Below are positions 6,537-42,802 of a DNA stretch of 64,000 nt, one piece after another. Each line of letters starts with the position of its first letter. The stretch's first letter is position 1. Position numbers and translations under genes: made by a program. Source of the stretch: a virus. The notes beneath the pieces were generated by a model. The model saw only the letters and a list, made by a program, of their open reading frames with translations, was not told where the DNA came from and made no database searches. The stretch spans positions 1-64,000 of IMG/VR virus record IMGVR_UViG_3300033388_004609; one strand, given 5' to 3'.

Positions 6537-6830
6537 TTACGTATTATAAGGTTCTAATAATCTGTAACAATGATCTATTATTGCCTGTATATCATTCTCT
6601 GTTAATATATTATATTCATTATTTATTGTTGTATCTCCTACTATATTGTAATCTTGTAGTAATACAACATATTTACTAACAAGAATATTCTTCGTGTTTA
6701 AATGATCAACATACCAAAAATTCCCTGTATGATAAGCCATACTTTTAGCAAGATCATCACCTAACCTACCATGGAACAATTGAATTATTCCAAGATCATT
6801 ATTTAACTGCGACTGATTCAATACTTGCAT
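6537..6830 (-). CDS. Small helical protein overlapping the glycosyltransferase gene
   Basis: 97 residues starting inside the 3' end of the upstream triple-glycosyltransferase gene (32-base overlap), an arrangement typical of translational coupling. The sequence has several short helices (LLQDYNIVGD, NDIQAIIDHCYRLLEPY). Not recognised. The overlap suggests it is made together with the glycosyltransferase. Confidence 0.5.
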   Translation of the reverse strand: MQVLNQSQLNNDLGIIQLFHGRLGDDLAKSMAYHTGNFWYVDHLNTKNILVSKYVVLLQDYNIVGDTTINNEYNILTENDIQAIIDHCYRLLEPYNT

Positions 6831-9192
6831 CTTCGTATAATTTTTCTTTCATTAACTCATCAAGTACATACTCTCTCTCCGGATTAAACTCTTTATCACT
6901 CTCTATCCATCCTCTAATTGCTTCTTTCTCTGCTTTCATGTTATGATGTGCACTCGGGATAACATTATCTTTAAGGAAGTAATGTGACTTCTCTGATTCG
7001 AAAAATGTAAACCCTGTCAATATAATTTTCTTAAAATGTAACCATCTTGCTAACATTATAGCCATAATTCCTACACTTGGGAAAGCATTTATCTCTTCTG
7101 CTACTACAGTAAACATCTTTGCAAATTCATCCTCATCACTATAAGTAATAACATTCATTCCTCTTGCACGAAGATCATTTGCATTTTCATTCCAATATTT
7201 ATGCATTTGTTTTGCTGTAGTGTATTTTTGGTATAATGTATCACTTATTGGCAATATACCAAATATCGGATAAGTTACTTTCTTTTGAGGAATAATCTCA
7301 TGGAATAATGAAGATATATTTAAGTCGGTTCTTTTACCTATCTTCTCGTATCCCTTACCAACCTTAAAATTATTACATCTCATTATAAATGAAAGTGTAA
7401 TCTCTTTTGACAAATTGGTTTTGAATGGTCCATTACCAACAACTGTACATGCATCCATTTCACTAATCATAGGCTTAATTACATCCCTTACAGACCTTTT
7501 AATAACACTTCTATTAACATCTGTCTTAAACCTTCTCGATGCTTGGTTATGTACTATAACGGGATTAGAAGATACTATAAGATCATTATCGAATATCTTT
7601 ATGTAGTCTGCTGGTAATGGTATGTAATCTAAAGTTGAAAATTCACTCATTATCTTTTGGAAATTCTTAGCATCAGGTAAGCTATTTGAATTATTCTCAA
7701 CAATCCACCTGTCAATAAGTCTTTGTACTCTTATGTTATTTGCAAAATACATCGTACCAGTAAGCATCTCATTCCATTCTTTAATCATATAGAATGATAA
7801 ATCTCCACTTACATTATCAAAGAACACCGGTTTCTTTAATACCTCTGCATCTGCATCAAGCCATACAACCGGTTTATTATACTTATTCATCACACTTTTA
7901 ATAACATGTGGTTTCATCTGTGTATTCTTCTCCCATGATCCCTGTGGTTTATAACCAATAAGTTCATATTTTATACCATACTTATCTAATCCTTCTTTAA
8001 GTTTCTCTATCTCTTGTTCATATGGAGTATCTACTGTAAACATGGAAGCAACAACATATCCTGTATACTTACCTTTTACCTTACCCATCTTCTCATGCGT
8101 AAATTCAAGATTCTTTTGTGCCTGCTCCCTTACATTACCAGGTAATCCATTCTGTTTATAATTCAATACTTTTTTATTAGCTCTCTCTGCTTTTTCATAT
8201 TCTCCTGTATAAAAATAACATATCCCTAATTCAAAATCTGTCATGATATCATATTGTACTTTATGAACAAACAACAAATCATTCCCCGGATAAGGCATAC
8301 TTTTTATCTTCTCGAAATACAATTTAGCCTGGTTATACTTTTTTTGCTCCCTACATAATACTCCAAGTGAATATAAACATTCAAACCTATGTGGCCGAAA
8401 ATCATATCCATCCAAGTAAGCTAACTTTGCTTTATCATTCTCTTTCAGGTTAGCAAGCATTATCCCTATTTGATATTTAGAATAATACACCTCTTCGGGC
8501 CATCCACCTTTATTTACTCTTTCCTGATAAAACTTTATCGCCTGTTTGTAATTCTTCATATTAGCATATGTCTGTGCTAAATAAAAATAACTCCTTACCT
8601 CTGATGGATTTTCCAGTATATCCTTCTCAAGTAATTCCTTGTCCCTAACAAGCTTCTCATGACGTGTACCGCCATCAAAATGATGATTAATCCACAAGCT
8701 CCGTAATTCAATTGGTTGGTTTAAAACGTCTGATGTGATGTATTCATGTGTTACTCCTTTATAATACCAATCTTTATGTCCACTAACAAATAATGCCTGT
8801 GCAAAATCTAACCCACCTTCATATCTTAAATGGTACATGTCGGCAGTTAGTTTACTCTTATCAAAATCTTTATTCCAATGTATTGTAAAATCTGCATCTG
8901 CTAATAACAAATAATCTGCTTTACCTTTTGCTTTCCGTACAAGTTCTGTCCTGTTATGTCCAAAATTCACAAATTCACTTTTATATACTTCTCCTTTAAT
9001 ATCATTTAATTCTCTATCAATTATTTCAAGAGTATTATCTGTGCTACCCGTGTCGATTATTACATAATAGTCAATAATCTCCCTACAGGAGTCAATAAGT
9101 CTTTTAATGATTTTTCCTTCATTTTTAACTATCGCACAAAGGCAGATAGTCTTTTCTATTTTCTTTTCATTCTTCATAATATACATCTCCAT
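6799..9192 (-). CDS. Triple glycosyltransferase fusion (GT2 + TPR + nucleotide-sugar transferase + GT29-like)
   Basis: 797 residues holding three catalytic-looking modules. Residues 12-200 are a GT-A family 2 domain: CLCAIVKNEG start, DTGSTDNT at 47-54 and the metal-binding DAD at 99-101. Residues 200-350 are TPR-like helical repeats, a GT2-TPR pairing common in bacteria. Residues 376-550 form a second GT-A-like domain with VWLDADAEV (443-451), resembling Nucleotid_trans/GT77 proteins. Residues 583-760 look like a GT29 sialyltransferase-type domain: VVGNGPF (584-590), MRCNNF (604-609) and SVGIMAI (706-712) followed by ILTGF. Together these could build a short glycan. The gene lies just downstream of the collagen-like fibre and lectin-like gene, so these products or the host surface are likely acceptors (inference). 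The start may be Met6. Confidence 0.75.
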   Translation of the reverse strand: MEMYIMKNEKKIEKTICLCAIVKNEGKIIKRLIDSCREIIDYYVIIDTGSTDNTLEIIDRELNDIKGEVYKSEFVNFGHNRTELVRKAKGKADYLLLADADFTIHWNKDFDKSKLTADMYHLRYEGGLDFAQALFVSGHKDWYYKGVTHEYITSDVLNQPIELRSLWINHHFDGGTRHEKLVRDKELLEKDILENPSEVRSYFYLAQTYANMKNYKQAIKFYQERVNKGGWPEEVYYSKYQIGIMLANLKENDKAKLAYLDGYDFRPHRFECLYSLGVLCREQKKYNQAKLYFEKIKSMPYPGNDLLFVHKVQYDIMTDFELGICYFYTGEYEKAERANKKVLNYKQNGLPGNVREQAQKNLEFTHEKMGKVKGKYTGYVVASMFTVDTPYEQEIEKLKEGLDKYGIKYELIGYKPQGSWEKNTQMKPHVIKSVMNKYNKPVVWLDADAEVLKKPVFFDNVSGDLSFYMIKEWNEMLTGTMYFANNIRVQRLIDRWIVENNSNSLPDAKNFQKIMSEFSTLDYIPLPADYIKIFDNDLIVSSNPVIVHNQASRRFKTDVNRSVIKRSVRDVIKPMISEMDACTVVGNGPFKTNLSKEITLSFIMRCNNFKVGKGYEKIGKRTDLNISSLFHEIIPQKKVTYPIFGILPISDTLYQKYTTAKQMHKYWNENANDLRARGMNVITYSDEDEFAKMFTVVAEEINAFPSVGIMAIMLARWLHFKKIILTGFTFFESEKSHYFLKDNVIPSAHHNMKAEKEAIRGWIESDKEFNPEREYVLDELMKEKLYEDASIESVAVK

Positions 9193-9225
9193 GCTTTTAA
9201 GTTAATAATTTATTCTGTCATTATT

Positions 9226-9744
9226 TTAAGTTTTATAATCATCACATAATTTTGCTGCACTATCTGTATGTCCGGCTTGTGCTATAATTGCAGCAGTATT
9301 AGCCTTTCCTGTCCCAATTGCTGTACCCTGTGCTGCTGGCCCTATTTCTACATCATCTATATTGCTCCATATGTATTCGCTACTTTGATCATTTCGTGCT
9401 GCTTCATAATAAGTCGTACCACCATCAATATAGAAAATCAATCCTTTTTGTGGACCTGTATCTCTTAACGAATAAGCTCCTACTCCTGCAACAAATGAAC
9501 GACAAGCTCTTACCGAAGTAACATATAAAAAATATTTATAAAATATCGCTTGATTATCCAACGAAAATTGATGTCGCCAAACAACACTATTATTATATTC
9601 ACTTGAACTCCAATATTCGCCCCCACTAAAATTACCAACTTCATGTGCATAAAGATTAGTACGCATTGCTGCTAATTCATCTTTTGATGGTAAAAACCAA
9701 TCACTATTACACGTGTGATAAAATGTAGGCATGAAACGTTCCAT
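9226..9744 (-). CDS. Rearranged DUF1566 (Lcl, lectin-fold) protein
   Basis: 172 residues. Residues 15-85 hold the C-terminal half of a DUF1566/Lcl domain: DWFLPSKDEL, GGEYWSSSE and VRACRSF. Residues 92-172 hold what is normally the N-terminal half: DTGPQKGLIFYIDGG, EAARNDQSS, GTGKANT and HTDSAAKLCDDY. In the usual family order CDDY leads directly into the DWFLPSKDEL segment, so this protein appears circularly permuted. DUF1566 folds resemble C-type lectins and occur in phage receptor-binding proteins. The gene abuts the collagen-like fibre (its start coincides with that stop), which suggests a tip or adhesin. Confidence 0.65.
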   Translation of the reverse strand: MERFMPTFYHTCNSDWFLPSKDELAAMRTNLYAHEVGNFSGGEYWSSSEYNNSVVWRHQFSLDNQAIFYKYFLYVTSVRACRSFVAGVGAYSLRDTGPQKGLIFYIDGGTTYYEAARNDQSSEYIWSNIDDVEIGPAAQGTAIGTGKANTAAIIAQAGHTDSAAKLCDDYKT

Positions 9745-12653
9745 TATATCTTAAGTTTTACTAATTCTAATTTCATTGAAATTTTACCATATCTATCACC
9801 AGTAACTTTTAATTGTGGCCAAATTTCACCAGCAGAACCAGTCATATTCAATCTTATATCAGAATCACCAATAACCGGACTTCTAAATGTTACCGAACTA
9901 CCTCCATCAATAAACAATGCTCCTGTTGAATTAATGACACACCCTGCGTACAATTCTCTACAATAATCACCTGTGGTACCTGAATTTCCAGATTCCTGTA
10001 TCCATATAGAATTAATGTCAATAGCAAAACTAGTACCAGTAGGACAAGCAATCTTATTACTTGAATTATTCCCCGGATAAACATCATTATAATATCCTCC
10101 TGTTGTTCCACTTACATTACCATAACAATGTATAGTAGAATATTGAGCATCGCCTGTCTCACTAAATTTACCACTTGATCTTGCAAATTCACTATAATTT
10201 TCAGCTTTAGAATTTTCACCTCCTGCATTTGCATAATTATTACTTACTACATTACTCCTTCCTGACACAATACTAGAATTTCCATTCACATAATTACTGT
10301 AACCACCTACAATATTTTCGATAGAACCACCCGTTACAATATTATTATATCCTCCTACTAAATTATAATGAGATGCTTCACTAATTGTATTCTCTCTACC
10401 GCCAACAATATTATTATGTGAATAATCTATAATATTCGATTGACCACCTATAATATTCTGCGAACCAGAACCAGTAACGCTGCATGATTGTCCAAAAACA
10501 GCATTATATGCACCACCACTAATATAAGCATTTGATCCACCAATAATATTTCCTTCCGCATTTAACCCCGAACAATTACTCTTATTTCCAAAAACAAAAT
10601 TATATGATCCAACACCAGCAGTGGATTCATGACCAATTACGGTATTATATTCTCCCAAAGCTGTAGATCCCGCCCCTGTAATAACCATTGATCCTGTACC
10701 TGATGATTTCTTCCAATAATGTTCTTCTGCTCCACCAGTAGGTCCAGTAGGCCCTGTTACTGTCGAGTCGGCTCCTGTAGGTCCCGTAACTGTTGAGTCT
10801 GCCCCTGTAGGACCGGTATTGCCAGTAGGGCCAGTAACCATCGAATCAGCTCCTGTTGGACCTATTTCCCCCTGAATTCCCGTAGCACCAGTTGGACCAG
10901 TAGTATCTGAATCAGCTCCTGTAGGTCCTCGTTGTACGAATATATCCCAGTAAGTAGCTTCATTCACTCCTACTCCCGGCTCACTACCTGCAGTCGATGT
11001 ATGTGCTAATATACACACGTATCCATTACCGTTACTAAAAACACAGTCATTATATATATATGTTCCTGTTATCCATGTACCCGTCCAATTGTATGTCGCT
11101 CCAGATGATCCTGTAGGACCAGTTACAGTACTGTCTGCTCCAGTTACTCCTGTTGGTCCTATAGCTGCTTGCATAGCCATTACATGAATAGAACCTTCAT
11201 TTATTAATACTGTACCTGTATCAGTATTACTTCTCCTAAATACTCCTGTAAATCCATATGTTCCTGTTGCCAGTGCCATAGATTGATAATGAGCATATAA
11301 TGATTCGGGTTTATTATCTATATGATATTGTAAAAATTCAGGTCCTGTTACTCCATCTATGACCACCGCATATCCTCCTGTTGCTCCTGTAACACCTGTA
11401 CTCTGAACTGTAAGTGTCATTTCTGCATAAACAGGTACATTTGTATCAATTGTTATTGTACCTGTTAATCCGGGTATCTCTGTCCATACACCTGTCTGGC
11501 TCTCGATTGTAGAACTTAATTCCTGATATACATTTGGTACACTACCACCCGTTGCTGATGGTCCAACCGGCCCCAATGGTCCTGTCGGTCCAGGAGCATA
11601 TACCCCGCCGTAAAGATTCACCCACCATTCATTAAATGCACCTGATCCTGTATTACTTATTGAATTAACATTTAATAATCCACTATCAGAATCATAAGTT
11701 ACTACAGTTGCTTTAAATAATTGGCTATCTGAATGAGCAATAACAACATTCTGTCCTACTGAATAAGATCTTCCTGTACTAATAGACATACTCACATTAG
11801 TCGGGTGAGAGGAAGGGATTGTTTCTGTATCTGATGAAGTAGCAGCATATCGATCACCTAATCCATCCTCCCCATCTATCCCTGCTGTACCATCTGTCCC
11901 AGTAGATCCTGTTGGACCAGTAGGACCAGCTACTGTTGAATCAGCTCCTGTTGGGCCTCGTGCTCCAGTAGTTTCTGGAGGTCCAGTAGGTCCTGTTATA
12001 CCTGCTCCTGTAGGACCGGAAGGTCCGGTAGGCCCTGTAGATCCAGCAGCAGTTGAATCTGCACCAGTTGGACCTTTTTGTACAAACATATCCCAATATG
12101 TAGCCTCGTTTGCTCCTATTCCCGGTTCACTGCCTGCAGTTGATGTATGTGCTAATATACAAACATACCCATTACCATTGCTGAAAACACAATCGTTGTA
12201 TATATATGGTCCTGTAACCCATGGTCCAGTCCAATTATATGTTGCTCCAGACGATCCTGTAGGTCCGGTAATTGTGCTATCTGCTCCAGTAGGGCCTGTA
12301 ACTGATGAATCTGCCCCTGTTGGTCCTGTCGGTCCATCGAGCCCCTGTGATCCTGTTATCCCTCGCGATCCTGTTTCTCCTGTATCTCCCTTTGTACCTT
12401 GCAATCCGGTATTTCCTGTTGGTCCCTGACTACCTGTGATACCTGTTGGTCCAGTCGGCCCATCCACACCGGTTACTCCTACCCCAGTAGCACCAATACT
12501 TCCTGTTTCTCCTTTAGAACCTGTAACACCACTTAATGCTTTATCACCACCAAGATAGACAATATTCCCCTTCTCAGTCCTTGCAGCTTCGATATGTGTT
12601 GTACCACCTTCAATATCCGGTGATGATCCAAGAAATTTTGCTCCTGTGGCCAT
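9744..12653 (-). CDS. Thr-rich collagen-like tail fibre with lectin-like modules and YadA-like head repeats
   Basis: 969 residues. Several blocks of Gly-X-Y repeats, dominated by GPTGPTG and GPTGADS, run through about 42-135, 192-270, 505-520 and 575-650. Two near-identical inserted modules of about 56 residues (about 137-192 and 519-575, with NDCVFSNGNGYVCIL and EATYWD) look like small carbohydrate-binding domains. A central beta domain (about 370-500) is C1q/TNF-like in layout. Residues 658-840 carry left-handed beta repeats (N-x-I-x-G-G) of the YadA/Hep_Hag head type. Collagen repeats would trimerise the fibre. Thr in the Y position is the residue O-glycosylated in bacterial collagen-like proteins such as BclA. 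Probably the host-recognition fibre. Confidence 0.8.
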   Translation of the reverse strand: MATGAKFLGSSPDIEGGTTHIEAARTEKGNIVYLGGDKALSGVTGSKGETGSIGATGVGVTGVDGPTGPTGITGSQGPTGNTGLQGTKGDTGETGSRGITGSQGLDGPTGPTGADSSVTGPTGADSTITGPTGSSGATYNWTGPWVTGPYIYNDCVFSNGNGYVCILAHTSTAGSEPGIGANEATYWDMFVQKGPTGADSTAAGSTGPTGPSGPTGAGITGPTGPPETTGARGPTGADSTVAGPTGPTGSTGTDGTAGIDGEDGLGDRYAATSSDTETIPSSHPTNVSMSISTGRSYSVGQNVVIAHSDSQLFKATVVTYDSDSGLLNVNSISNTGSGAFNEWWVNLYGGVYAPGPTGPLGPVGPSATGGSVPNVYQELSSTIESQTGVWTEIPGLTGTITIDTNVPVYAEMTLTVQSTGVTGATGGYAVVIDGVTGPEFLQYHIDNKPESLYAHYQSMALATGTYGFTGVFRRSNTDTGTVLINEGSIHVMAMQAAIGPTGVTGADSTVTGPTGSSGATYNWTGTWITGTYIYNDCVFSNGNGYVCILAHTSTAGSEPGVGVNEATYWDIFVQRGPTGADSDTTGPTGATGIQGEIGPTGADSMVTGPTGNTGPTGADSTVTGPTGADSTVTGPTGPTGGAEEHYWKKSSGTGSMVITGAGSTALGEYNTVIGHESTAGVGSYNFVFGNKSNCSGLNAEGNIIGGSNAYISGGAYNAVFGQSCSVTGSGSQNIIGGQSNIIDYSHNNIVGGRENTISEASHYNLVGGYNNIVTGGSIENIVGGYSNYVNGNSSIVSGRSNVVSNNYANAGGENSKAENYSEFARSSGKFSETGDAQYSTIHCYGNVSGTTGGYYNDVYPGNNSSNKIACPTGTSFAIDINSIWIQESGNSGTTGDYCRELYAGCVINSTGALFIDGGSSVTFRSPVIGDSDIRLNMTGSAGEIWPQLKVTGDRYGKISMKLELVKLKI

Positions 12654-23679: not shown

Positions 23680-26600
23680 TTAAATTTTTAGTTGTTTTTT
23701 TAATTCTCTCATTTTTAACATTTTTGCAAATGGATCTGCTTTCTCCATGGCTTTATATTTAAACATATCCATTCTTGCAAAAAAACCTGGTACCTCCAAT
23801 GCTTTATGTGATTCCTCCGGATCGAAATGCATCATGTCTTCTTTAAGAAGCATCAACATTCCAAATGCGCTTACTCTGTCAAAATTACCGTCTTTATGCC
23901 AATATATAAATTCCTGTAATAATGGAATAGATCGTATTGTATGTAAATTCATTAACTCACTACTACTGCTAACTTTAGTCACCAAATGTATTAATGATAA
24001 TTCTCTCGCCCATTTATTTATTCCCTGTGTACCAGGAGATCCTTTTCCACGATTAAGTACTACTTTATCAACTACCTTATCAGCTACTACCTTTGGAGTA
24101 TCACAAAGCAAGTATGAAGAGAATGTATTATTCATATAAGTCCCCATACCCTTGCAATCATTCTCGTAATTACACTTAGCATTATAATATATTAGTAACC
24201 TGCGAACATTTTCATAATACATATTCGCTGTCAGTGGCCGACCAGTATATTCTGCAACAATTCTACCTGTCACTTTATTCATGACAAATGTTGAACCAAG
24301 TGAATCTGTTGTTGAGTCATCATGGTCATATGTATCGTTACCAGCTATATAAAGTCCATACGGCACTTCTCCATCCTCTCCTGTTACTGGATGCTCATAG
24401 ATCACTATACACCCTTCTATAAGCTTCTTATCGTTTAAAGGGAATGTTCTAATCGGTCTTGCCTCAGGATCTAGTTTCCATTCAATCTTTTCAGTCTCCG
24501 GGTTAATTACAAGTTTACCAACATACTCTGTGTCTTCGAATTTTTCAGGGTGAGTTCTTACATACGCAAGATGTTCTTTAAGATCATTAATAGGAAAGAT
24601 AGTACCACCAATACGCATACATGCTTCCTGTGGTGTCTTGGGTTCTTCTGCAATGTGTCTTATTATTGCTTCGGGATTCTTTGTTTCATTTCTTACTTTA
24701 TCCCTATCAGCCTCTATTAGTTTATCTGCAAGTTCTGTATCTGAATTACCATCCTTATCCATGGTCCCTTCAAGATTCTTTAATACAGAAGAAAAGAAAC
24801 CAGACTTCGATCCAGCAGTTGTAGTATCCCATATATTAGGAACCATATGAACATTATATCCACCACCTTCATAATAAAGTTGCTCTAACCCCATAAAGTC
24901 TTGATTTTCAGTTCCTCCAGTTTGTTTGGTTATAAAATTGTTTGAGATATATGTATTTGTGTAAGCTGTATGAAGATTATAAATATTCTGCATCCCTATA
25001 TATTCAACCTTTGTAACAGATTCGGTTCTAAAATTAGTCATTCCTTTTTTGCCAATAAAAAAATGACCTTTATCATTATCAGGATTCAATTCGAAAACAC
25101 CTTTATTAATTCTGCTTCTATCTATAGAATTAGATTCATGTATCCGTCTCAAGACTTCCACTTTTTTCTTAGACAAAAGTTTAATATTCTTTTCGAAATT
25201 CTTTACATCATTTATATTTGTAATATACAATCTATAAACATATTCTTTACCACCACTATATCCGCTAGTTCTCTTCTCTTTGATTATATTACCATGAATG
25301 CCAAACTTCGTCAACTGATAATAAACCTCCTTAAGTAAAGGTTTAATATTACTCGTCAATACTACTCGAACTGTTTTCTTTTGCTTAGTCCATGTCACAT
25401 GACCATCTGCATCAAAATAGCCTGCAAGTAAATCAGAAAGTGATTTTTTATTATATTCGTGAATATTCTTAGGGAGCCTTTTATCATCTTTTACTTGTCC
25501 GTATATACCAATATCTTTTAATACATGTGAAAAGTTCTTTATTCCTACCGAATCATGCACTCCTCCATTACTCATAAATTTTGATTTGTATATAGAGGTA
25601 TCATAATTTTTCTTAACATATTTTAATATTGAATCGTCTGCACATGACAATTGAGGAGTTGCTCCTTTTGTATAATTTCCATCACCAATTAATAATCCTA
25701 TTAATCGAGCATCTTTTATATTCTTTTTCCCAAATACAGGAACTTCATCAATCTTTAATAATTGATCTCCTGGTTTTATATTTTTTGTTAATGTAAACGA
25801 AACTCTTCTTCCTGCCTGAAATTTTCCATCCATATATTTATACCATTGAGGTCTTGTCCACATTAATGGATGATCTCCTGAACATTCTATATAATTTTCT
25901 CCTGAAGTTGTTATTCTATAACATGGCTTTTTTTCAGGAGGTTTAAACCATTTTATTTTTTCTTTATAGGACTTATAACCATCGTAACCTATAATTCCAT
26001 CCTCTTGTTGTAAATCTTCAATATTTATTAGTTTTCCATCTTTCGTCCATACTTTAGTTCCTGCACAAACACAGCCGAAGGATGCTTGCAAACCAAAAGT
26101 AAGTCTTCCTTGTTGCATACTTTTTAAGGAGATGTTCCATGCTTTTAATAAGTTAGGATTTTTTCCGCTCTCTTCATACAGTATTAATTTTCCACGCTTG
26201 CCACGTGCTTTGTTCCAATTGTTTTTTAGACTTACTCCTATTATCTCTGACTTAAATCCTTTCTCTATTTTTAATCCATTCCTCTGAATATAGTAAGAAG
26301 CTCTTCTATGCATTACACTATTATGGACCTGTCGTCTTTTTCCCCATGGAGTATGATTTTCTATATGAGTCATCATATCCCATGCCTTGGTTATTATACC
26401 ATCTTCAATAAGATAATCTTTATCATCCGCAAAACAATAACTTTTACTTCCTGGAATAAGATAATAATTACGATTACACATACCGCCACCTTTAAGACTA
26501 AATCCTCTCCCCCTGGTTTTGATTACCACTGCATGTTCACCACTCTCTTCTGCATCATTCAGATAATGAAAATATGTATAATCATTATCCCAAAAATGAG

Positions 26601-26973
26601 GAAATTGATCCTCCCTATCAGCTTGTGTCTGTTTGGTTAATTCATCAAATCCCCTTTTGTTATCATCTATTTTTTCTCTCTCTACAGCAATAGGTATTGG
26701 ACAATAATTTAGATAGAAATAAAAATAACCAGGAATCCAATCTCTTCCAATATCATATCCAAAGACTGATCTCCTGGCTTCTTCTTCCCAGAATTTATAG
26801 TACATACTATTGGGGTGAGAATTTACAGGGTAATTAGTGTATCTTCCAAACTCTTCAAAATGCAGAGCAGAAGCACGCCATTCATCGGTATTATAATGTT
26901 TAGTATTCTTATAATAACCTGATGTGATTATATCGCTTTTAGGTTGCACCGGTGATAAAATGTCACTGGTCAT
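23680..26973 (-). CDS. terL: Terminase large subunit interrupted by an intein
   Basis: 1097 residues, of which 301-684 are an intein, leaving a 713-residue terminase. N-extein: an ATPase with the Walker A-like KTRGRGFS (152-159) and Walker B LILYEE (263-268). Directly after comes the LTFGLQASFG motif, which joins to TGGTEN once the intein is removed, giving the coupling-motif region. C-extein: contains nuclease-type acidic residues (YIAGNDTYDHDD, about 910-921) fitting an RNase H-like nuclease. The protein packages DNA into the prohead together with a small subunit and portal. Four bases separate it from the portal gene. Confidence 0.85.
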   Translation of the reverse strand: MTSDILSPVQPKSDIITSGYYKNTKHYNTDEWRASALHFEEFGRYTNYPVNSHPNSMYYKFWEEEARRSVFGYDIGRDWIPGYFYFYLNYCPIPIAVEREKIDDNKRGFDELTKQTQADREDQFPHFWDNDYTYFHYLNDAEESGEHAVVIKTRGRGFSLKGGGMCNRNYYLIPGSKSYCFADDKDYLIEDGIITKAWDMMTHIENHTPWGKRRQVHNSVMHRRASYYIQRNGLKIEKGFKSEIIGVSLKNNWNKARGKRGKLILYEESGKNPNLLKAWNISLKSMQQGRLTFGLQASFGCVCAGTKVWTKDGKLINIEDLQQEDGIIGYDGYKSYKEKIKWFKPPEKKPCYRITTSGENYIECSGDHPLMWTRPQWYKYMDGKFQAGRRVSFTLTKNIKPGDQLLKIDEVPVFGKKNIKDARLIGLLIGDGNYTKGATPQLSCADDSILKYVKKNYDTSIYKSKFMSNGGVHDSVGIKNFSHVLKDIGIYGQVKDDKRLPKNIHEYNKKSLSDLLAGYFDADGHVTWTKQKKTVRVVLTSNIKPLLKEVYYQLTKFGIHGNIIKEKRTSGYSGGKEYVYRLYITNINDVKNFEKNIKLLSKKKVEVLRRIHESNSIDRSRINKGVFELNPDNDKGHFFIGKKGMTNFRTESVTKVEYIGMQNIYNLHTAYTNTYISNNFITKQTGGTENQDFMGLEQLYYEGGGYNVHMVPNIWDTTTAGSKSGFFSSVLKNLEGTMDKDGNSDTELADKLIEADRDKVRNETKNPEAIIRHIAEEPKTPQEACMRIGGTIFPINDLKEHLAYVRTHPEKFEDTEYVGKLVINPETEKIEWKLDPEARPIRTFPLNDKKLIEGCIVIYEHPVTGEDGEVPYGLYIAGNDTYDHDDSTTDSLGSTFVMNKVTGRIVAEYTGRPLTANMYYENVRRLLIYYNAKCNYENDCKGMGTYMNNTFSSYLLCDTPKVVADKVVDKVVLNRGKGSPGTQGINKWARELSLIHLVTKVSSSSELMNLHTIRSIPLLQEFIYWHKDGNFDRVSAFGMLMLLKEDMMHFDPEESHKALEVPGFFARMDMFKYKAMEKADPFAKMLKMRELKKQLKI
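24922..26073 (-). other. Intein with LAGLIDADG homing endonuclease inside terL
   Basis: 384 codons in frame within terL. Block A is CVCAGTKV at intein residues 1-8; block B holds CSGDHPL around residue 64 with the conserved His. Two LAGLIDADG motifs lie at about 124-132 (LIGLLIGDG) and 215-225 (LLAGYFDADGH). The C-terminal block runs YNLHTAYTNTYISNNFITKQ and is followed by Thr as the +1 nucleophile. The last intein residue is Gln and the penultimate residue is Lys, unlike the usual His-Asn. Splicing would restore a FG-TGG junction in the ATPase coupling region. Confidence 0.85.
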
Positions 26974-29421: not shown

Positions 29422-30531
29422 TTAAGGGAAAGCTTTACACATAGAATCATTGATTATTACTTTCTCAACTATTTCATTATAACTACCGAATGTGCATCTA
29501 GGACAATCTTTTACTTTAATATCGCGTATCATTTTTCTATGAAATTCTGTATTCCATACTTTAAGTATCTCTACTGGATCCGGATCATGCTTGCATAATA
29601 TTAAATCCTTTCTTCCGCGCATGTCAAAACATGTATGAACATTACCATCAGCACCAAATGTAGGTAACAAAGGAATCGCCCAACATCGTGAGAAATTTAC
29701 TTTACGTGAGAAATCCGGATTGAACTTATGTCTTATTCCATACACTCTAAAATATTTTGTTTCAAGTTTCATCCCTTCATTTAATTGCTTATTTATCCTA
29801 TCAATTAAACTTGTATAATCCGGTTTTCTTATTACATGAGGTAGATTATCCCATCCTGCCGGTCTTAAATGAAAATCATGTACTCCTATTTCTTTAGCCA
29901 ATTTTATTGCATCATATATCTCTAATGCATTACCAGGAGTTAAAAGAAATTTGAATGCCACATCACATTTCGAATTAGTATCTCTAATCCTTTTTACAAC
30001 TTTCTTAATATTTTCTATTACTAATTTAAACATTCCACCACCATTAAGTCCCTTAAGTTTATTATATGTTTCTGTTGTTGCTGCATCTACAGAGAATCCT
30101 ATCCATCTTGCTGTACGTGCTATTGCTTCTATATGATACTCCTTCATAATAGATCCATTAGTAATAATTCCTATCTCCATACCATGATAATACATTCTAT
30201 TATACAAACTTACCAAATTAGGATTCATAAAACTCTCACCGCCACCAGCGATGCATGCTGAATTAGGAGTCTTATGTCTTGTTGAATTTCTCCAATCAGC
30301 TAAAAAATCCACTAATTTTATCATATGTTTCTCTGACATATCCATCCCACTTTCATGTATCATCTTCCAAGCATTACAATGCGGACATTTAAAATTGCAT
30401 CTATTTGAAGGATCAATATCTACGGTTATCGGTGGTAAGTAATCTTCTTTAGCACACCCTTCAAGATGTTTTCTCCACAATAACACTTTTGCACTATTAA
30501 ACGGATTCCAAGGATTAGACCATTCTTTCAT
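29422..30531 (-). CDS. Radical SAM enzyme with SPASM-type C-terminus
   Basis: 369 residues. The SAM-cluster motif CNFKCPHC (CxxxCxxC) is at about 48-55; the barrel includes GGGESFMNP (about 111-119). A C-terminal cysteine region (CWAIPLLPTFGADGNVHTCFD, then CPRC near the end) is typical of SPASM/twitch auxiliary clusters. Such enzymes modify peptides, cofactors or sugars. It lies in an island with glycosyl- and methyltransferases, so modification of a sugar or of a virion peptide is possible. Substrate unknown. Confidence 0.8.
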   Translation of the reverse strand: MKEWSNPWNPFNSAKVLLWRKHLEGCAKEDYLPPITVDIDPSNRCNFKCPHCNAWKMIHESGMDMSEKHMIKLVDFLADWRNSTRHKTPNSACIAGGGESFMNPNLVSLYNRMYYHGMEIGIITNGSIMKEYHIEAIARTARWIGFSVDAATTETYNKLKGLNGGGMFKLVIENIKKVVKRIRDTNSKCDVAFKFLLTPGNALEIYDAIKLAKEIGVHDFHLRPAGWDNLPHVIRKPDYTSLIDRINKQLNEGMKLETKYFRVYGIRHKFNPDFSRKVNFSRCWAIPLLPTFGADGNVHTCFDMRGRKDLILCKHDPDPVEILKVWNTEFHRKMIRDIKVKDCPRCTFGSYNEIVEKVIINDSMCKAFP

Positions 30532-30536
30532 AATCT

Positions 30537-31232
30537 TTACTTTAAAATATCATTTAAATAATGTAATGAAGTTTTTAGTTGGCTATCATCAGTATCGTAA
30601 TCGTAAATAATTTTCTTTGCTTTTTCATTAACATGTAACTTTTTAGATAACACATTAGTAATCTCTTGTACTGTTATATTGTCGCTACTATACAACCTTA
30701 TTATTTCATTCCTTTTAGAATACAAATATTCTTTGATTTTCTTTGCTACTTCTGTTACAGCAATTAATTGCAGTTTTGAATCAGGGGTTAAATATACTTC
30801 CTGATTTGTCACTATATCGTTAACTACACCTTTTCTTGCATCCTTACCTATAACAGCACAGCAACGTATCACTAACCAATTATCACAATATCTTTCAACT
30901 ATTTGTTCTGCCAGATATCTATTAAGCCCATATATATCAATATTCTTTTCTGCATCAATAGTTGATATGTATATATATTTATCATATTTGAAATGACTAA
31001 ACGAATCTATCACAGTTGTCACAGATGTCTTAAAATCCCTTTCTGGATATCTGTTTGCCAGGAACTTTGTACTATTACCATTTGCATTAATTAGTATATC
31101 AAACTCTTCGCCAACGTGGCTACGATAATTACTTTTCGTAATCTCTATTATTTCAAAATCTTTTTTAAGCGATAAAGCAATATTTTTGCCTATAAATCCA
31201 AGTGCTCCTATTATTCCTATTTTCATAATCAA
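30537..31232 (-). CDS. Nucleotide-sugar epimerase/dehydratase-like (extended SDR)
   Basis: 231 residues, shorter than typical 300-residue members. The Rossmann motif GALGFIG is at residues 9-15, after MKIGII. The active-site-like YGLNRYLAE (about 106-114) has Arg where the family has Lys in YxxxK, a possible loss of catalysis or a shift of substrate. It would act on an NDP-sugar for the neighbouring glycosyltransferases. It ends a few bases before the radical SAM start. The start could be Met1 or Met3. Confidence 0.65.
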   Translation of the reverse strand: MIMKIGIIGALGFIGKNIALSLKKDFEIIEITKSNYRSHVGEEFDILINANGNSTKFLANRYPERDFKTSVTTVIDSFSHFKYDKYIYISTIDAEKNIDIYGLNRYLAEQIVERYCDNWLVIRCCAVIGKDARKGVVNDIVTNQEVYLTPDSKLQLIAVTEVAKKIKEYLYSKRNEIIRLYSSDNITVQEITNVLSKKLHVNEKAKKIIYDYDTDDSQLKTSLHYLNDILK

Positions 31233-31256
31233 ATAATTTCATATTTCAAAAATTCA

Positions 31257-32075
31257 TCATTCATAATTACAATTTAATTTAATCCATTCAAAAGGAATTA
31301 TATTAATATTTGAATTATTGCGATCTATTGTCCATTGATTCGGTACTATAATAATTTTATTCGGATTATTGATTAACCATGAACCCCACCAACTAAATGA
31401 ACTATTAGCAATTATTGAATGCTTACACTTACTCATAAGATATATGGTTTCATAATCCGTAAATTTCTCAAGTGTAACATCAATAACTTCTCCGAATTCG
31501 TTCTTCATCCATTGATAATCATCACTAACTCCCACAATTAATGAATCAGGAAACCATTTATTCATCATAGATAGTGCCCTTATATAATAATTTTTTTTTT
31601 TTTTTTCATGAGCTTTTCTAGCGGCAACATCCACAACTATCTCATTCCTGCGTATATGCATAAAAATAGGTTCTTTGTTTCCAGTAATACGTTCCTCCAT
31701 TGCTAGTAATTGAGTAGTTATGTACTCTTCTTTTAATATAAACTCTTTTAATATTACATTTCTATATTGTTTAAAGTATTCTTCGGCTTGCCAATAACCA
31801 TCAAGTATTACATTTTCATTACCGAATTTTTGTATTAGGTCTATATCCCATGCAAATATTCTCTCTTTTATCAATCTTGCATCCTTTGACTTTCCGCGAT
31901 TATTAGCAATATTAAATTTATCAAGAACAAATGGATAAGGGTATTTTCTGCGGGGATTATTATACGATGAAATATCCAATATCATACTTGTATCATTAAA
32001 TAAAGATAATGCTCTTGCTGTAGCGTATTGAAACATCTGATTTCCTAATCCTCCTTTAATTTTTATTGTTATCAT
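31257..32075 (-). CDS. GT11 fucosyltransferase-like with A16 tract
   Basis: 272 residues. Family GT11 (alpha-1,2-fucosyltransferase) signatures are present: start IKGGLGNQMFQYATARAL, the sugar-nucleotide motif HIRRNE, and SSFSWWGSWL near the end. A run of 16 A (31606-31591 on the minus strand) encodes Glu-Lys4-Asn at about residues 156-161; such a tract slips easily and could turn the gene on and off. Fucosylation of a surface or virion glycan is the likely function. Confidence 0.85.
   Translation of the reverse strand: MITIKIKGGLGNQMFQYATARALSLFNDTSMILDISSYNNPRRKYPYPFVLDKFNIANNRGKSKDARLIKERIFAWDIDLIQKFGNENVILDGYWQAEEYFKQYRNVILKEFILKEEYITTQLLAMEERITGNKEPIFMHIRRNEIVVDVAARKAHEKKKKNYYIRALSMMNKWFPDSLIVGVSDDYQWMKNEFGEVIDVTLEKFTDYETIYLMSKCKHSIIANSSFSWWGSWLINNPNKIIIVPNQWTIDRNNSNINIIPFEWIKLNCNYE
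31591..31606. repeat. Homopolymer tract of 16 T (16 A in coding strand) inside the GT11 gene
   Basis: Sixteen consecutive T on the plus strand code for a Glu-Lys4-Asn run in the fucosyltransferase-like gene. Homopolymers this long change length by slippage in bacteria and would shift the frame. See findings. Confidence 0.85.
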
Positions 32076-32081
32076 TATTGA

Positions 32082-32648
32082 TTATTTTGATTTTTGAAAC
32101 ACCATTATTGTATTGGCAAACCAGGACAATGTACTATGAGTTCTTAAAAATAATGTAGTAGTGTTATCGTAGTTGAATTTATTATCGACCATTTTACTTA
32201 TAATATAATCGTTATTTCTATTATTCACATGACCAAATCCGCCTTGTCCTTCTTTTGCCCAACTTAAAATAACTCTATCTCTTGCTGAATTAATAATATT
32301 TTCTAAAAATACCGATTCATACTCTTCCGGTATATGCTCTCCAACCTCTAAACATAATACAAGATCATGTTTACCAAGATCAGTTGGAATTGTAAAATCC
32401 TGAACAAAACATGTATTACCGGATAATTCTTTCGTATAAGGATTACCATCGTAACCATAACAAACAAACCCATTGTTATTGAGATAATTGGTATAATCTC
32501 CGTTGCCACAACCAATATCAATGATTGTAAGGGGTTGCCAATTATTTAATAGTAGTATAATTGCTTTACATAATATTTCATCAAATGCATGCTCTGAATT
32601 ATCATTCATAAGCCAATACCCTTTTTTATGTATTTTATTTACTTCCAT
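32082..32648 (-). CDS. SAM-dependent methyltransferase (class I)
   Basis: 188 residues. Motif I IDIGCGNGDYTNYL (about 43-56), acidic GYDGNPY after the second strand, and LCLEVGEHIPEEY (post-II motif) identify a Rossmann methyltransferase of the SAM type 11/23 group. Its place between a glycosyltransferase and a B12-radical SAM gene suggests methylation of a sugar or small molecule rather than DNA. Overlaps the upstream gene by 10 bases. Confidence 0.75.
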   Translation of the reverse strand: MEVNKIHKKGYWLMNDNSEHAFDEILCKAIILLLNNWQPLTIIDIGCGNGDYTNYLNNNGFVCYGYDGNPYTKELSGNTCFVQDFTIPTDLGKHDLVLCLEVGEHIPEEYESVFLENIINSARDRVILSWAKEGQGGFGHVNNRNNDYIISKMVDNKFNYDNTTTLFLRTHSTLSWFANTIMVFQKSK

Positions 32649-33892
32649 ACTTCCAATGCTTTTTTATTATAATTATCTATATCTTTTGAAACCTCGTTTC
32701 TCAGTATATTATAATTATTCTTAGCAATTCGTGGACAAAAATAATTATATGGACTTTGATGTGAGAACATAGCCAACTCATAGGTTTTCCCAATTAATCC
32801 ATATTCTTGACAAGTATCGTATAGTGCAGTACCTTTATATGGAGTAAAGAAACTTAACGTAATCCTGAACGGTTCAAGACTCTTAATAAATTTTATAGTG
32901 TTTAATATTGTTAATTCCGTGTCATGAGGAAATCCGATAATACAATATGCCTTCCATTGAATCTCATGCTTATTAAGTAATTCAGCAGCTATCCGGAATT
33001 GCTCAACTGTTTCTCCTTTACTTATTGTTTTTAATATATCACTATTTGAACTCTCAACACCTATACTCATTTGTCCACAATTAGCATCTTTCATCATTAC
33101 TATCTTTTCTTCAGTAAGTATATCGGCCCGGGTATCACATCTCCACTTTACCGGTAAATCATAATTTGCACAAAATTCCTGTAATCTTTTTCCGTTTAGA
33201 GTAAATACTTCATCCCAAAAGGTAAAGTAATCTGTTTTGAATCTTTTATAAATATAAGTCATTTCCGATAATAACCTAGGAACAGATTTGTATGTTACAC
33301 GTCTTTTCCACATTACCTTTGATGCACAAAAGGCACAATTGAACGGACAACCTCTTGAAGACAATAAATGTCCATAACCATTAGGAGAATATTTATCTAA
33401 TAATATATCATAATCAGCAAATGGAAGATTATCCAAATGTGATATCCGCCCTCCATTCGATTCATATTCTCCTTTGAATACTTCTACATCTTTAGGATAT
33501 GCATCTATCTCTGCCATTGGATGATTACCACCTACAATAACATCTATACCATATTGTTTGGCAATTTTAATTATCATCAGTGCAGACCGATACTTAACAT
33601 TCAAAACGTTAATACCTATCTGATCGGGTTGGATATCTTTTATTAAAGTATGGAGTTCCTGCCAAATAGGATGTTCTTCGTTATCAACATTGTCAATATA
33701 CCGATCATAATCATCAGATCTTCCGGCATAACCTTTATAATTTGTACCAGGACCAATCTCCATATTTTTTAAATAAACTTCCTTGCCTTGCTTCTTCATG
33801 AAGGATCCTACAGCAAGTAATGATAATGGTACATAATCTTGTTCAAGACCTATAAATCTATAGAATGGAGGATTGATTAATAATACTTTCAA
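32639..33892 (-). CDS. B12-binding radical SAM enzyme
   Basis: 417 residues. The N-terminal cobalamin-binding-type domain (LLINPPFYRFIGLEQDYVPLSLLAVGSF, GINVLNVKY, VGGNHPMAEI) is followed by the radical SAM motif GCPFNCAFC (about 178-186), an iron-sulphur cluster site. Members of this family methylate unreactive carbons or rearrange sugars and lipids. The host must supply cobalamin; gut Bacteroidetes usually do. It overlaps the GT25 gene by four bases (ATGA), so they are co-translated. Confidence 0.8.
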   Translation of the reverse strand: MKVLLINPPFYRFIGLEQDYVPLSLLAVGSFMKKQGKEVYLKNMEIGPGTNYKGYAGRSDDYDRYIDNVDNEEHPIWQELHTLIKDIQPDQIGINVLNVKYRSALMIIKIAKQYGIDVIVGGNHPMAEIDAYPKDVEVFKGEYESNGGRISHLDNLPFADYDILLDKYSPNGYGHLLSSRGCPFNCAFCASKVMWKRRVTYKSVPRLLSEMTYIYKRFKTDYFTFWDEVFTLNGKRLQEFCANYDLPVKWRCDTRADILTEEKIVMMKDANCGQMSIGVESSNSDILKTISKGETVEQFRIAAELLNKHEIQWKAYCIIGFPHDTELTILNTIKFIKSLEPFRITLSFFTPYKGTALYDTCQEYGLIGKTYELAMFSHQSPYNYFCPRIAKNNYNILRNEVSKDIDNYNKKALEVWK

Positions 33893-34560
33893 ATTATCTT
33901 TTGTTTGAATTGTTTAACATAATCCCTGTGTCCGTGTTGTATATCACTATAATCTGCTTTTTGCCATACTAGCGGTGGATTAAATGCAAATGCCTGGCAT
34001 TCTTTCTGCATTGTACATAAAAATCCATCTGCCGAATTTGTTAAGTATGGCCTATCGCTTGTCATTCTCTTTAGTACTCTCGAAAAGATTCTGTTATGCA
34101 AAGCATATGCATGCGTTGACATCATATCAAAAACTTTTATAATATGATCATTGTTGTCATTTATACTTACTGGCCTTATGCCATTCATGTTATACAATCC
34201 TCCAAGATAAAGCATGTCCCAATAATAAGGAACTTCTTTTATTCTATCTTCAAATACCATATTAAAAAAATCAATGAATTCACAATCATCCTCAAGTATT
34301 AATATAGATTCATATTTTTTATGTATTGCTTCCTTAATGATTGTTATTTGTGTTGATGTACCCCCAGCCACTCCATCAAACCCTCTCATTGGATGAGGGT
34401 ATTTGTCTCTCATCCAGCCCCACTCATTACCTTCTATACCTCTGAATACCTTTGCTTTTATACCAAGATTCCTGAATGTCTTTTTCATAGCAAGAAATCT
34501 ATCCCTTCTTCTTTTAAGGTTTATACAATATATCTTATCAAAGTACCTGTTCAGTGTCAT
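33889..34560 (-). CDS. GT25 glycosyltransferase (LPS/collagen galactosyltransferase family)
   Basis: 223 residues. FDKIYCINLKRRRDRFLAM (about 7-25) and LILEDDCEFID (about 93-103) are the family 25 signatures; the EDD site coordinates metal and sugar nucleotide. Bacterial GT25 adds sugars to lipopolysaccharide; eukaryotic and giant-virus members act on collagen hydroxylysine. Here the same phage encodes a collagen-like fibre. It overlaps the upstream gene by about 22 bases. Confidence 0.8.
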   Translation of the reverse strand: MTLNRYFDKIYCINLKRRRDRFLAMKKTFRNLGIKAKVFRGIEGNEWGWMRDKYPHPMRGFDGVAGGTSTQITIIKEAIHKKYESILILEDDCEFIDFFNMVFEDRIKEVPYYWDMLYLGGLYNMNGIRPVSINDNNDHIIKVFDMMSTHAYALHNRIFSRVLKRMTSDRPYLTNSADGFLCTMQKECQAFAFNPPLVWQKADYSDIQHGHRDYVKQFKQKII

Positions 34561-35008
34561 TTTGTAATCCTATTTGTTTTAAGATTATTTTCAACTCAGA
34601 AAGGTTTTTAATTGTTCCAGAAAATTGAATATAGTTAACATAGTCATCTTTTATTTCAACAAATATATTATCTCCATTTCTGACATAACGCAATCTATAA
34701 TTCCCTTTTTTAAAAACCAAGTCAGGCTTACCTGAGCCTTTACCAGTTATAGCTTCGGCATAAAAGCCCCATCCCAAACTTTCAATATCTTTTTTATCCA
34801 GATATTTAACACGAATCATTCCGAGATTATTATCGAGATTATATTTAATGAAATCAAGAGTATAAGGTTCTGACTTACCATATACTTGTTTAAACCATTC
34901 TTTAGGAGGACGTATTGCTAATGTTCCTGCAACAATATCGTTGTTTACTTCAAATTCAAATCCTGCATAGAATTCTGAAATTATTGGTGTATAGTATTTG
35001 TTTTTCAT
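34538..35008 (-). CDS. Hypothetical protein (156 aa)
   Basis: 156 residues, mixed beta/alpha, with a moderately basic N-terminal half and an acidic middle. The opening (MKNKYYTPIISEFYAGFEFEV...) is seen in many phage hypothetical proteins of Bacteroidetes. No motif is recognised. Its end overlaps the GT25 start, so it belongs to the same transcript. Confidence 0.5.
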   Translation of the reverse strand: MKNKYYTPIISEFYAGFEFEVNNDIVAGTLAIRPPKEWFKQVYGKSEPYTLDFIKYNLDNNLGMIRVKYLDKKDIESLGWGFYAEAITGKGSGKPDLVFKKGNYRLRYVRNGDNIFVEIKDDYVNYIQFSGTIKNLSELKIILKQIGLQNDTEQVL

Positions 35009-42300: not shown

Positions 42301-42373
42301 CGGGAGTCTGGTGTAATCAGGTAGCATACCTGCCTTGGAAGCAGGAGGCGCAGTTCAAATCTGAGGTTCCCGA
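42301..42373 (+). tRNA. tRNA-Pro (anticodon UGG)
   Basis: CGGGAGT pairs with GTTCCCG (with G-U pairs); anticodon stem CCTGC/GCAGG with loop CTTGGAA (anticodon TGG); T loop TTCAAAT with one mismatched stem pair. No encoded CCA. Reads CCA and wobble codons. Confidence 0.7.
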
Positions 42374-42375
42374 CT

Positions 42376-42451
42376 GTGACTGATCCCGAAGTGGTCGAGG
42401 GGCCGGATTGTGATTCCGGTATCAGTGGGTTCGAGTCCCACCAGTCACCCA
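42376..42451 (+). tRNA. tRNA-His (anticodon GUG)
   Basis: GTGACTG pairs with CAGTCAC; the first G can be the G-1 paired with C73 that identifies tRNA-His. Anticodon stem CCGGA/TCCGG with loop TTGTGAT (GTG). T arm GTGGG-TTCGAGT-CCCAC. CCA is encoded (42449-42451). Confidence 0.85.
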
Positions 42452-42453
42452 TT

Positions 42454-42525
42454 GGCCTTGTGGTGTAATGAATAGCATGTAACGCTTCGAATGTTATGGT
42501 TCTGGTTTGAATCCCGCCAAGGCCT
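42454..42525 (+). tRNA. tRNA-Arg-like (anticodon UCG), poor T stem
   Basis: Acceptor GGCCTTG/CAAGGCC and anticodon stem TAACG/TGTTA with loop CTTCGAA (anticodon TCG) are good. The T arm (TCTGG-TTTGAAT-CCCGC) has two mismatches and the D loop lacks the usual GG, so it may be degenerate. Confidence 0.5.
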
Positions 42526-42532
42526 CTCTATT

Positions 42533-42606
42533 GTCCCTTTAGCCCAATTGGTAGAGGCATCAGGTTTAAGCCCTGTGTAGTCTGGGTTCGAATCCCAGAA
42601 GGGACA
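42533..42606 (+). tRNA. tRNA with Leu anticodon UAA but class I variable loop
   Basis: GTCCCTT/AAGGGAC acceptor; anticodon loop TTTAAGC (anticodon TAA, reads UUA); T arm CTGGG-TTCGAAT-CCCAG. The variable loop is only five bases, whereas bacterial tRNA-Leu normally has a long class II arm. No encoded CCA. Confidence 0.75.
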
Positions 42607-42612
42607 CACAAT

Positions 42613-42686
42613 GCTAAAGTGTGCTAACTGGCAAAGCAGCGATACTTAGAATATCGTGGATGTGAGTTCGAATCTCACCTTTAGCA
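42613..42686 (+). tRNA. tRNA with Leu anticodon UAG but class I variable loop
   Basis: GCTAAAG/CTTTAGC acceptor; anticodon stem CGATA/TATCG with loop CTTAGAA (anticodon TAG, reads CUA); T arm GTGAG-TTCGAAT-CTCAC. All canonical except the short variable loop, as in the preceding tRNA. Confidence 0.75.
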
Positions 42687-42692
42687 CAAAAT

Positions 42693-42764
42693 TGTCCTTT
42701 AGTATAATGGTCAGTACACAAGGCTTTGATCCTTGAAATCCCGGTTCGAGTCCGGGAAGGACAT
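42693..42764 (+). tRNA. tRNA-Gln (anticodon UUG)
   Basis: TGTCCTT/AAGGACA with the U1-A72 pair typical of tRNA-Gln; anticodon stem CAAGG/CCTTG, loop CTTTGAT (TTG); T arm CCCGG-TTCGAGT-CCGGG. Reads CAA, the favoured Gln codon in an AT-rich genome. Confidence 0.85.
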
Positions 42765-42802
42765 CTATACCTATCTTAAATATAATATATAAACACTATT
42801 TT

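Follow-up and report, generated by a model that had tools for sequence, protein, structure and literature searches.

The subject of this analysis is a fused glycosyltransferase gene and a nearby gene for a collagen-like tail fibre, which are located in a 64,000-nucleotide stretch of viral DNA (hereafter the window; positions 1 to 64,000 of the 86,348-base IMG/VR record IMGVR_UViG_3300033388_004609) classified here by sequence as part of a divergent crAss-like phage (Crassvirales). We consider it likely that the fused enzyme glycosylates the phage's own fibre, since many unrelated phages and bacteria have an enzyme of this type next to a threonine (Thr)-rich collagen gene. Glycosylation of the fibre by its neighbouring enzyme had been proposed in an original prediction made from the sequence, and it is now strongly supported computationally by the membership of the enzyme in a group of peptide glycosyltransferases, by its pairing with collagens and by the precedent of SgtA from C. 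difficile. The role usually ascribed to phage glycosyltransferases is the protection of DNA or a change of the host surface. The literature search found no description of a phage that glycosylates its collagen fibre (subscription papers lay outside this search and such a report may exist). Three features are new relative to the literature searched: the carriage of the system by a phage, the fusion of three domains and the presence of a sialyltransferase-like domain.

The fused enzyme and the collagen-like fibre

When the 797-amino-acid (aa) enzyme was compared with Pfam, matches were found to GT2 (9e-10), TPR and GT29 (4e-8, over the cut-off), and its AF2 (AlphaFold2) model had a predicted local distance difference test (pLDDT) value of 81.6. 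The catalytic GT2 domain carries DxGSTD and DxD motifs and is followed by TPRs. The top Foldseek matches of this GT2-TPR part were SunS and ThuS (E 1e-17), and a profile made from 23 members of the enzyme family found GmaR (1.2e-19) and SunS (4e-18). SunS, ThuS and GmaR are peptide or protein glycosyltransferases, and these matches place the N-terminal half of the enzyme in this peptide-glycosylating GT2-TPR group. Identity with SunS itself (TIGR04195) was ruled out because the enzyme scored 33.4 bits, far under the curated family cut-off of 350 bits.

Pfam GT29 (PF00777) was matched by all five members, with 35.9 bits for the window protein against a cut-off of 23 bits. When the C-terminal domain was modelled alone, Foldseek places 1 to 17 were all occupied by sialyltransferases, with Cst-I in first place (7e-5). 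Thus, the comparison of the GT29-like domain with characterised enzymes, which the original prediction had suggested as a check, returned a sialyltransferase both in Pfam and by fold. Invariant histidines (His) were found at 183, 195 and 196 of A3 when the sialyltransferase-like domain was checked, and no single His could be tied to catalysis. In the case of the middle domain, a profile search gave no match to any solved structure. The enzyme also showed a fold match to PBCV-1 A64R (2p6w, 1.5e-8), which is not attributable to one domain.

The middle domain has homologues encoded by genes of their own in the GT2-TPR phage loci L018, L032/L033, L034, L037 and L047, and the same holds for the C-terminal domain in L048. 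The crAss-like protein therefore combines enzymes that are encoded apart in other phages. GT2-TPR was also observed in fusion with other domains (further GT2 domains, GT17) in L028 (7178-11968), L031 (9032-11113) and L025 (8828-11965), and these differing fusions indicate that fusion of collagen-linked glycosyltransferases happened more than once.

The 969-aa fibre consists of a conserved N-terminal anchor, interrupted Gly-X-Thr blocks, two CBM_5/12-like modules (two CBM_5_12 copies in Pfam) and a C-terminal beta-roll head. It matched Pfam Collagen (PF01391) at 1.7e-10 (40.9 bits; curated cut-off 27.2) and phage tail-fibre PHROGs at 1.4e-37, and is the sole collagen-type protein found in the 86,348-base record. 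Gly-X-Y triplets in runs of three or more number 70, with Thr in the Y position of 38 and lysine (Lys) in that of two. The long Gly-Pro-Thr/Gly-Ala-Asp-Ser repeats which the original prediction had described are therefore genuine collagen, but they do not form one long rod: the register is interrupted by 'GADSTVT' inserts, which break the rod into blocks, and the longest uninterrupted run has 19 triplets. The same prediction had placed a triple glycosyltransferase one gene downstream of the fibre, and this arrangement was recovered, with exactly one gene (172 aa, overlapping the fibre stop by one base) between the two and with GT2, TPR, GT-A-like and sialyltransferase-like domains in the enzyme.

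Pairing of the enzyme with threonine-rich collagens

A search of viral contigs with an alignment of the enzyme recovered 80 loci, which were dereplicated at 70 % identity to 44. A collagen-like open reading frame (ORF) was present within 10 kb of the enzyme in 32 of the 44 loci (within 3 kb in 25), and all 60 collagen-like ORFs at this distance in the viral loci were on the enzyme strand. When controls were scored in the same way, collagen was found in none of the 30 loci holding relatives of the window GT25 enzyme (Fisher p 3e-11 vs the fused enzyme), in one of the 36 loci holding relatives of the window GT11 (none within 3 kb; p 2e-11) and in one of 120 random 14-mer loci covering 1.08 Mb (p 6e-23). 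The density of collagen ORFs within 3 kb of the enzyme was five times that at 3-10 kb. In the reverse test, the enzyme was detected in 19 of 120 GPTGPTG loci and in none of 120 random loci. Searching viral contigs with the fibre itself revealed no relatives because the fibre is too variable.

In bacterial genomes, for which there was no random-locus control, a collagen-like ORF was found within 8 kb of the enzyme in 46 of 80 loci; after dereplication and under a stricter Y=Thr rule, 26 of 55 were paired, 25 of these within 3 kb. Pairs of GT2-TPR and Thr-rich collagen were observed, for example, in L481, L512, L521, L525, L538 and L541, and the phyla with the pair include Bacteroidota, Pseudomonadota, Myxococcota, Actinomycetota and Verrucomicrobiota. 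The bacterial loci suggest that GT2-TPR and Thr-rich collagen form a general bacterial collagen-glycosylation pair. When a tree of 104 sequences was drawn, the pairing occurred in every large branch with viral and cellular rows mixed, and the well-supported branches forced at least 25 label changes for collagen adjacency. This spread over the tree argues that the pairing is not an accident of one lineage.

The collagens within 3 kb of the enzyme had a median Y=Thr fraction of 0.575, compared with 0.20 in phage collagens that lack the enzyme and were selected with a Y-neutral DNA pattern (p=8e-6; the two sets were sampled differently).

The Thr-rich collagen gene beside the enzyme was conserved in four relatives (L001, L011, L014 and L464). 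When the window was compared with L464, the enzyme was 93 % identical and the flanking structural proteins 94-99 %, the fibre was 49 % identical, and an unrelated 281-aa gene stood in place of the 172-aa gene. L001, L011 and L014 share the synteny, with enzymes of 52-57 % identity and diverged fibres, in which the N-terminal anchor and the Gly-X-Thr repeats are constant. Because the enzyme is conserved while the fibres diverge around this anchor and these repeats, its acceptor is probably the shared Gly-X-Thr repeats, not the receptor-binding head. The fibre relative in L001 (567-5720; 1717 aa) contains a very long beta-roll built from NAVFG/NLVGG-type repeat units. Between L464 (4514-7971) and the window (9226-12653), the fibre and the following gene are swapped or strongly diverged. 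Judged by this sequence comparison, the two genes make up a host-range module that adjoins the conserved glycosyltransferase. Since an unrelated gene replaces it in so close a relative, we regard the 172-aa gene as a swappable candidate fibre-tip or accessory gene, possibly for a second receptor-binding or tip protein.

Alternative acceptors, the GT25 enzyme and the host

Some of the results weigh against glycosylation of the fibre by the fused enzyme. No such enzyme was found in the stretch examined for 101 of 120 GPT-collagen phage loci, in 12 of the 44 viral enzyme loci no collagen ORF lies within reach, and collagen is missing within 5 kb in one viral sub-clade (L042, L053, L071, L078 and L088). 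Some members of the enzyme family therefore probably modify something else. Within the GPX pattern-selected sample alone the Y=Thr contrast gave p=0.066, and four enzyme-linked collagens (the first ORF of L020, L048, L057 and L068) have little or no Y-Thr. In addition, the model of the C-terminal domain is of moderate quality only (pLDDT 68). A cytidine monophosphate (CMP)-sugar synthetase was looked for in the phage and none was found, so that the donor for capping would come from the host.

The enzyme might instead modify host lipopolysaccharide (LPS) or capsule against superinfection and adjoin the fibre only as part of a shared host-interaction module. Many phage glycosyltransferases do so, this is the default assignment in PMC7029224 and PMC10202952, and Cst-like sialyltransferases act on lipo-oligosaccharide. 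We nevertheless find it rather unlikely here: phage GT25 and GT11 enzymes lack the collagen link (0/30 and 1/36), so a generic module effect fails to explain 32 of 44 paired loci with every collagen on one strand, and the N-terminal half of the enzyme falls in the peptide glycosyltransferase group, together with its TPRs. The same pairing is also found on bacterial chromosomes, and the linked collagens are Thr-rich. Another virion protein, such as the product of the 172-aa or 97-aa neighbour, the capsid or another tail protein, is improbable as the acceptor. The capsid and tail tube of some mycobacteriophages do carry glycans (Freeman et al. 2023, as cited in PMC12619734 and PMC11256854), synteny links the 97-aa gene to the enzyme, and some members of the enzyme family have no nearby collagen; however, the partner common to the lineages is the collagen ORF and not either neighbour, and L464 carries a different gene in place of the 172-aa gene of the window. 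The addition of sugar to modified phage bases, a known role of some phage glycosyltransferases, appears extremely unlikely for an enzyme that is encoded in a structural module, has GT2-TPR peptide glycosyltransferases as relatives and has no DNA-glycosylation relatives among its matches.

The remaining alternative is that the GT25 enzyme of the window takes part in modifying the fibre, in the role of a collagen galactosyltransferase, as the original prediction had also considered. The GT25-family enzyme that it had located at 33.9-34.6 kb was confirmed (Pfam 1.9e-9), and the comparison with characterised enzymes proposed there gave human procollagen galactosyltransferase 1 (8e-4) and mimivirus R655 (0.02) as the best PDB relatives, which speaks for such a role. 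We consider the role very unlikely and set GT25 apart from the fibre because its relatives show no collagen linkage, the fibre has few acceptor Lys (Y-Lys 2/70) and no match to a 2-oxoglutarate (2OG)-Fe(II) hydroxylase was found in the phage with PF13640, the one 2OG family searched. In addition, five crAss-like relatives (three of them fragments) have the fused enzyme and lack GT25, the GT25 cassette is replaced by other enzymes in relatives, and the Pfam description of the GT25 family is one of LPS biosynthesis. GT25 was thus rejected as a partner of the fibre, and hydroxylysine chemistry on the fibre was rejected on the Y-Lys count and the PF13640 result.

The GT25 gene belongs to a variable cassette (29422-35008, minus strand) that also encodes two radical SAM enzymes (one of which weakly matches a B12-binding domain), an epimerase-like protein, GT11 and a methyltransferase. 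In the relatives L544 and L545 a different sugar/radical SAM cassette is located at the same place, after the same gene for a single-stranded DNA-binding (SSB)-like protein. By names read from the sequences, this replacement holds nucleotide-sugar-dehydrogenase-like, methyltransferase-like, radical SAM and further glycosyltransferase-like genes.

In a PHROG profile search, PHROGs 11589, 6547 and 6681 were matched by the capsid, portal and terminase proteins of the window with values of about 1e-98 or better. Identity of the capsid protein to those of Cellulophaga phi14:2 and Bacteroides DAC15 is 38 %. The host is probably a member of the Bacteroidota, because the nearest cellular GT2-TPR sequence in the tree comes from Mucilaginibacter. 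The phage contig of L464 (JAGHCS010000009.1) was found inside a metagenome-assembled genome named Candidatus Cloacimonadota, which is either a hint of the host or a binning error. Six tRNA genes (Pro, His, Arg, Leu, Leu and Gln) are clustered at 42301-42765 (plus strand), where the two gene arms switch. The large terminase subunit (23680-26973, minus strand) contains an intein-like insertion at residues about 330-680; the terminase of the relative G002 is similar in length (1081 aa), and those of G005 and G001 are uninterrupted (711 and 705 aa).

Table 1 Features of the window assigned to, or compared with, the fibre and its fused glycosyltransferase
Feature	Position	Strand	Evidence
97-aa conserved protein; start overlaps the end of the enzyme gene	6537..6830	-	syntenic in L464, L014 and L011
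Fused glycosyltransferase, 797 aa	6799..9192	-	ORF, Pfam, AF2 model
Sialyltransferase-like domain (GT29 by Pfam, Cst-I/Cst-II-like fold)	6802..7515	-	
GT-A-like middle domain, WxDxD motif	7537..8061	-	
TPR domain, predicted to bind the fibre peptide	8077..8652	-	
GT2 domain, DTGSTD and DAD motifs, SunS/GmaR-like, predicted first-sugar transfer to fibre Thr/Ser	8653..9153	-	
172-aa protein, weak Lcl_C-like match (PHROG 4245)	9226..9744	-	
Collagen-like fibre, 969 aa	9744..12653	-	Pfam/PHROG, triplet counts, relatives
Fibre-head beta-roll repeats, LbR-like, under the Pfam cut-off	10212..10472	-	Pfam
Collagen block, residues about 586-645, GPTGAD/STVT repeats, contains a 30-bp tandem repeat	10719..10898	-	regular expression (regex), Tandem Repeats Finder (TRF)
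Collagen block 2, residues about 194-267	11853..12074	-	regex, second Pfam stretch
Collagen block 1 (longest), residues about 42-138	12240..12530	-	regex, Pfam Collagen 59-115
GT25 enzyme, 223 aa, judged outside the fibre system	33889..34560	-	Pfam

Predicted function and comparison with known systems

If the fused enzyme acts on the fibre, its TPR domain would hold the unfolded fibre chain while the GT2 domain attaches a first sugar to the Y-position Thr, and some serine (Ser), of the Gly-X-Thr repeats. By analogy with SgtA, this sugar could be O-linked N-acetylglucosamine (GlcNAc). The GT-A-like domain would then extend the glycan by a second sugar, to which the sialyltransferase-like domain may add a CMP-activated acidic sugar from the host as a cap. 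The computations establish the domains, their relatives and the coupling in the genome to Thr-rich collagen; the acceptor, the order of the steps and the sugars are what we infer for the fused enzyme, and extension and capping by the fused domains are reasonable but unproven. The likely benefit, in an organism that lacks hydroxyproline, would be a triple-helical rod that is stabilised and hydrated. We favour this stabilisation as the role of the glycan, as it is at least as plausible as the masking of the fibre or the change in receptor binding suggested in the original prediction, either of which is possible. As a wider proposal, which we put forward tentatively, phages of many lineages may use a dedicated GT2-TPR enzyme to glycosylate Y-Thr as a replacement for hydroxyproline, with the crAss-like lineage having fused initiation, extension and sialic-acid-like capping into one protein that yields a sialylated triple-helical fibre.

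The reproducible pairing of the enzyme with Thr-rich collagen provides a rule with which glycosylated phage fibres, and the enzyme responsible, can be predicted, and it offers an answer to how Gly-Pro-Thr collagens are stabilised without hydroxyproline. Glycans on the fibre would matter for receptor binding and for stability in the environment; in gut phages they would also matter for visibility to the immune system.

Among known systems, the best reading of the self-glycosylating fibre is a phage-borne, fused variant of SgtA-BclA3. SgtA of C. difficile consists of a GT2 domain followed by four TPRs, and its gene directly precedes bclA3. With UDP-GlcNAc and Mn2+, the enzyme modifies Gly-Pro-Thr collagen peptides by attaching beta-O-GlcNAc to their Thr (and Ser) residues (PMC7157674). 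The GT2-TPR layout in the N-terminal 370 residues of the phage protein, the Gly-Pro-Thr collagen neighbour and the predicted Thr acceptors are alike, a likeness that rests on the published architecture (PMC7157674) and not on a sequence alignment. The phage version differs in its occurrence in a crAss-like phage, in its fusion to two further glycosyltransferase domains and in having a tail fibre as its predicted substrate, whereas SgtA alone adds the first sugar only. SunS/ThuS and GmaR share the GT2 fold and motifs and were the top structural and profile matches, but the predicted acceptor of the phage enzyme is different.

Virus-encoded enzymes also glycosylate a structural protein of the virus in the collagen modification of mimivirus and in the capsid of PBCV-1. 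These are, however, viruses of eukaryotes, and mimivirus uses hydroxylysine chemistry, for which the PF13640 search found no counterpart in the window phage. In mycobacteriophages, according to the papers that cite Freeman et al. (2023), phage-encoded glycosyltransferases likewise decorate virion proteins, but the glycans described there are located at the C-termini of capsid and tail-tube proteins and not on collagen repeats. The E. coli prophage collagens (EPcl) resemble the window fibre as collagen-like phage fibres. They differ in their charged X/Y triplets, and the recombinant protein is unglycosylated and stable without Thr glycans (PMC3368898); charged triplets in these unglycosylated collagens fit the occurrence of Thr-rich collagens beside the enzyme.

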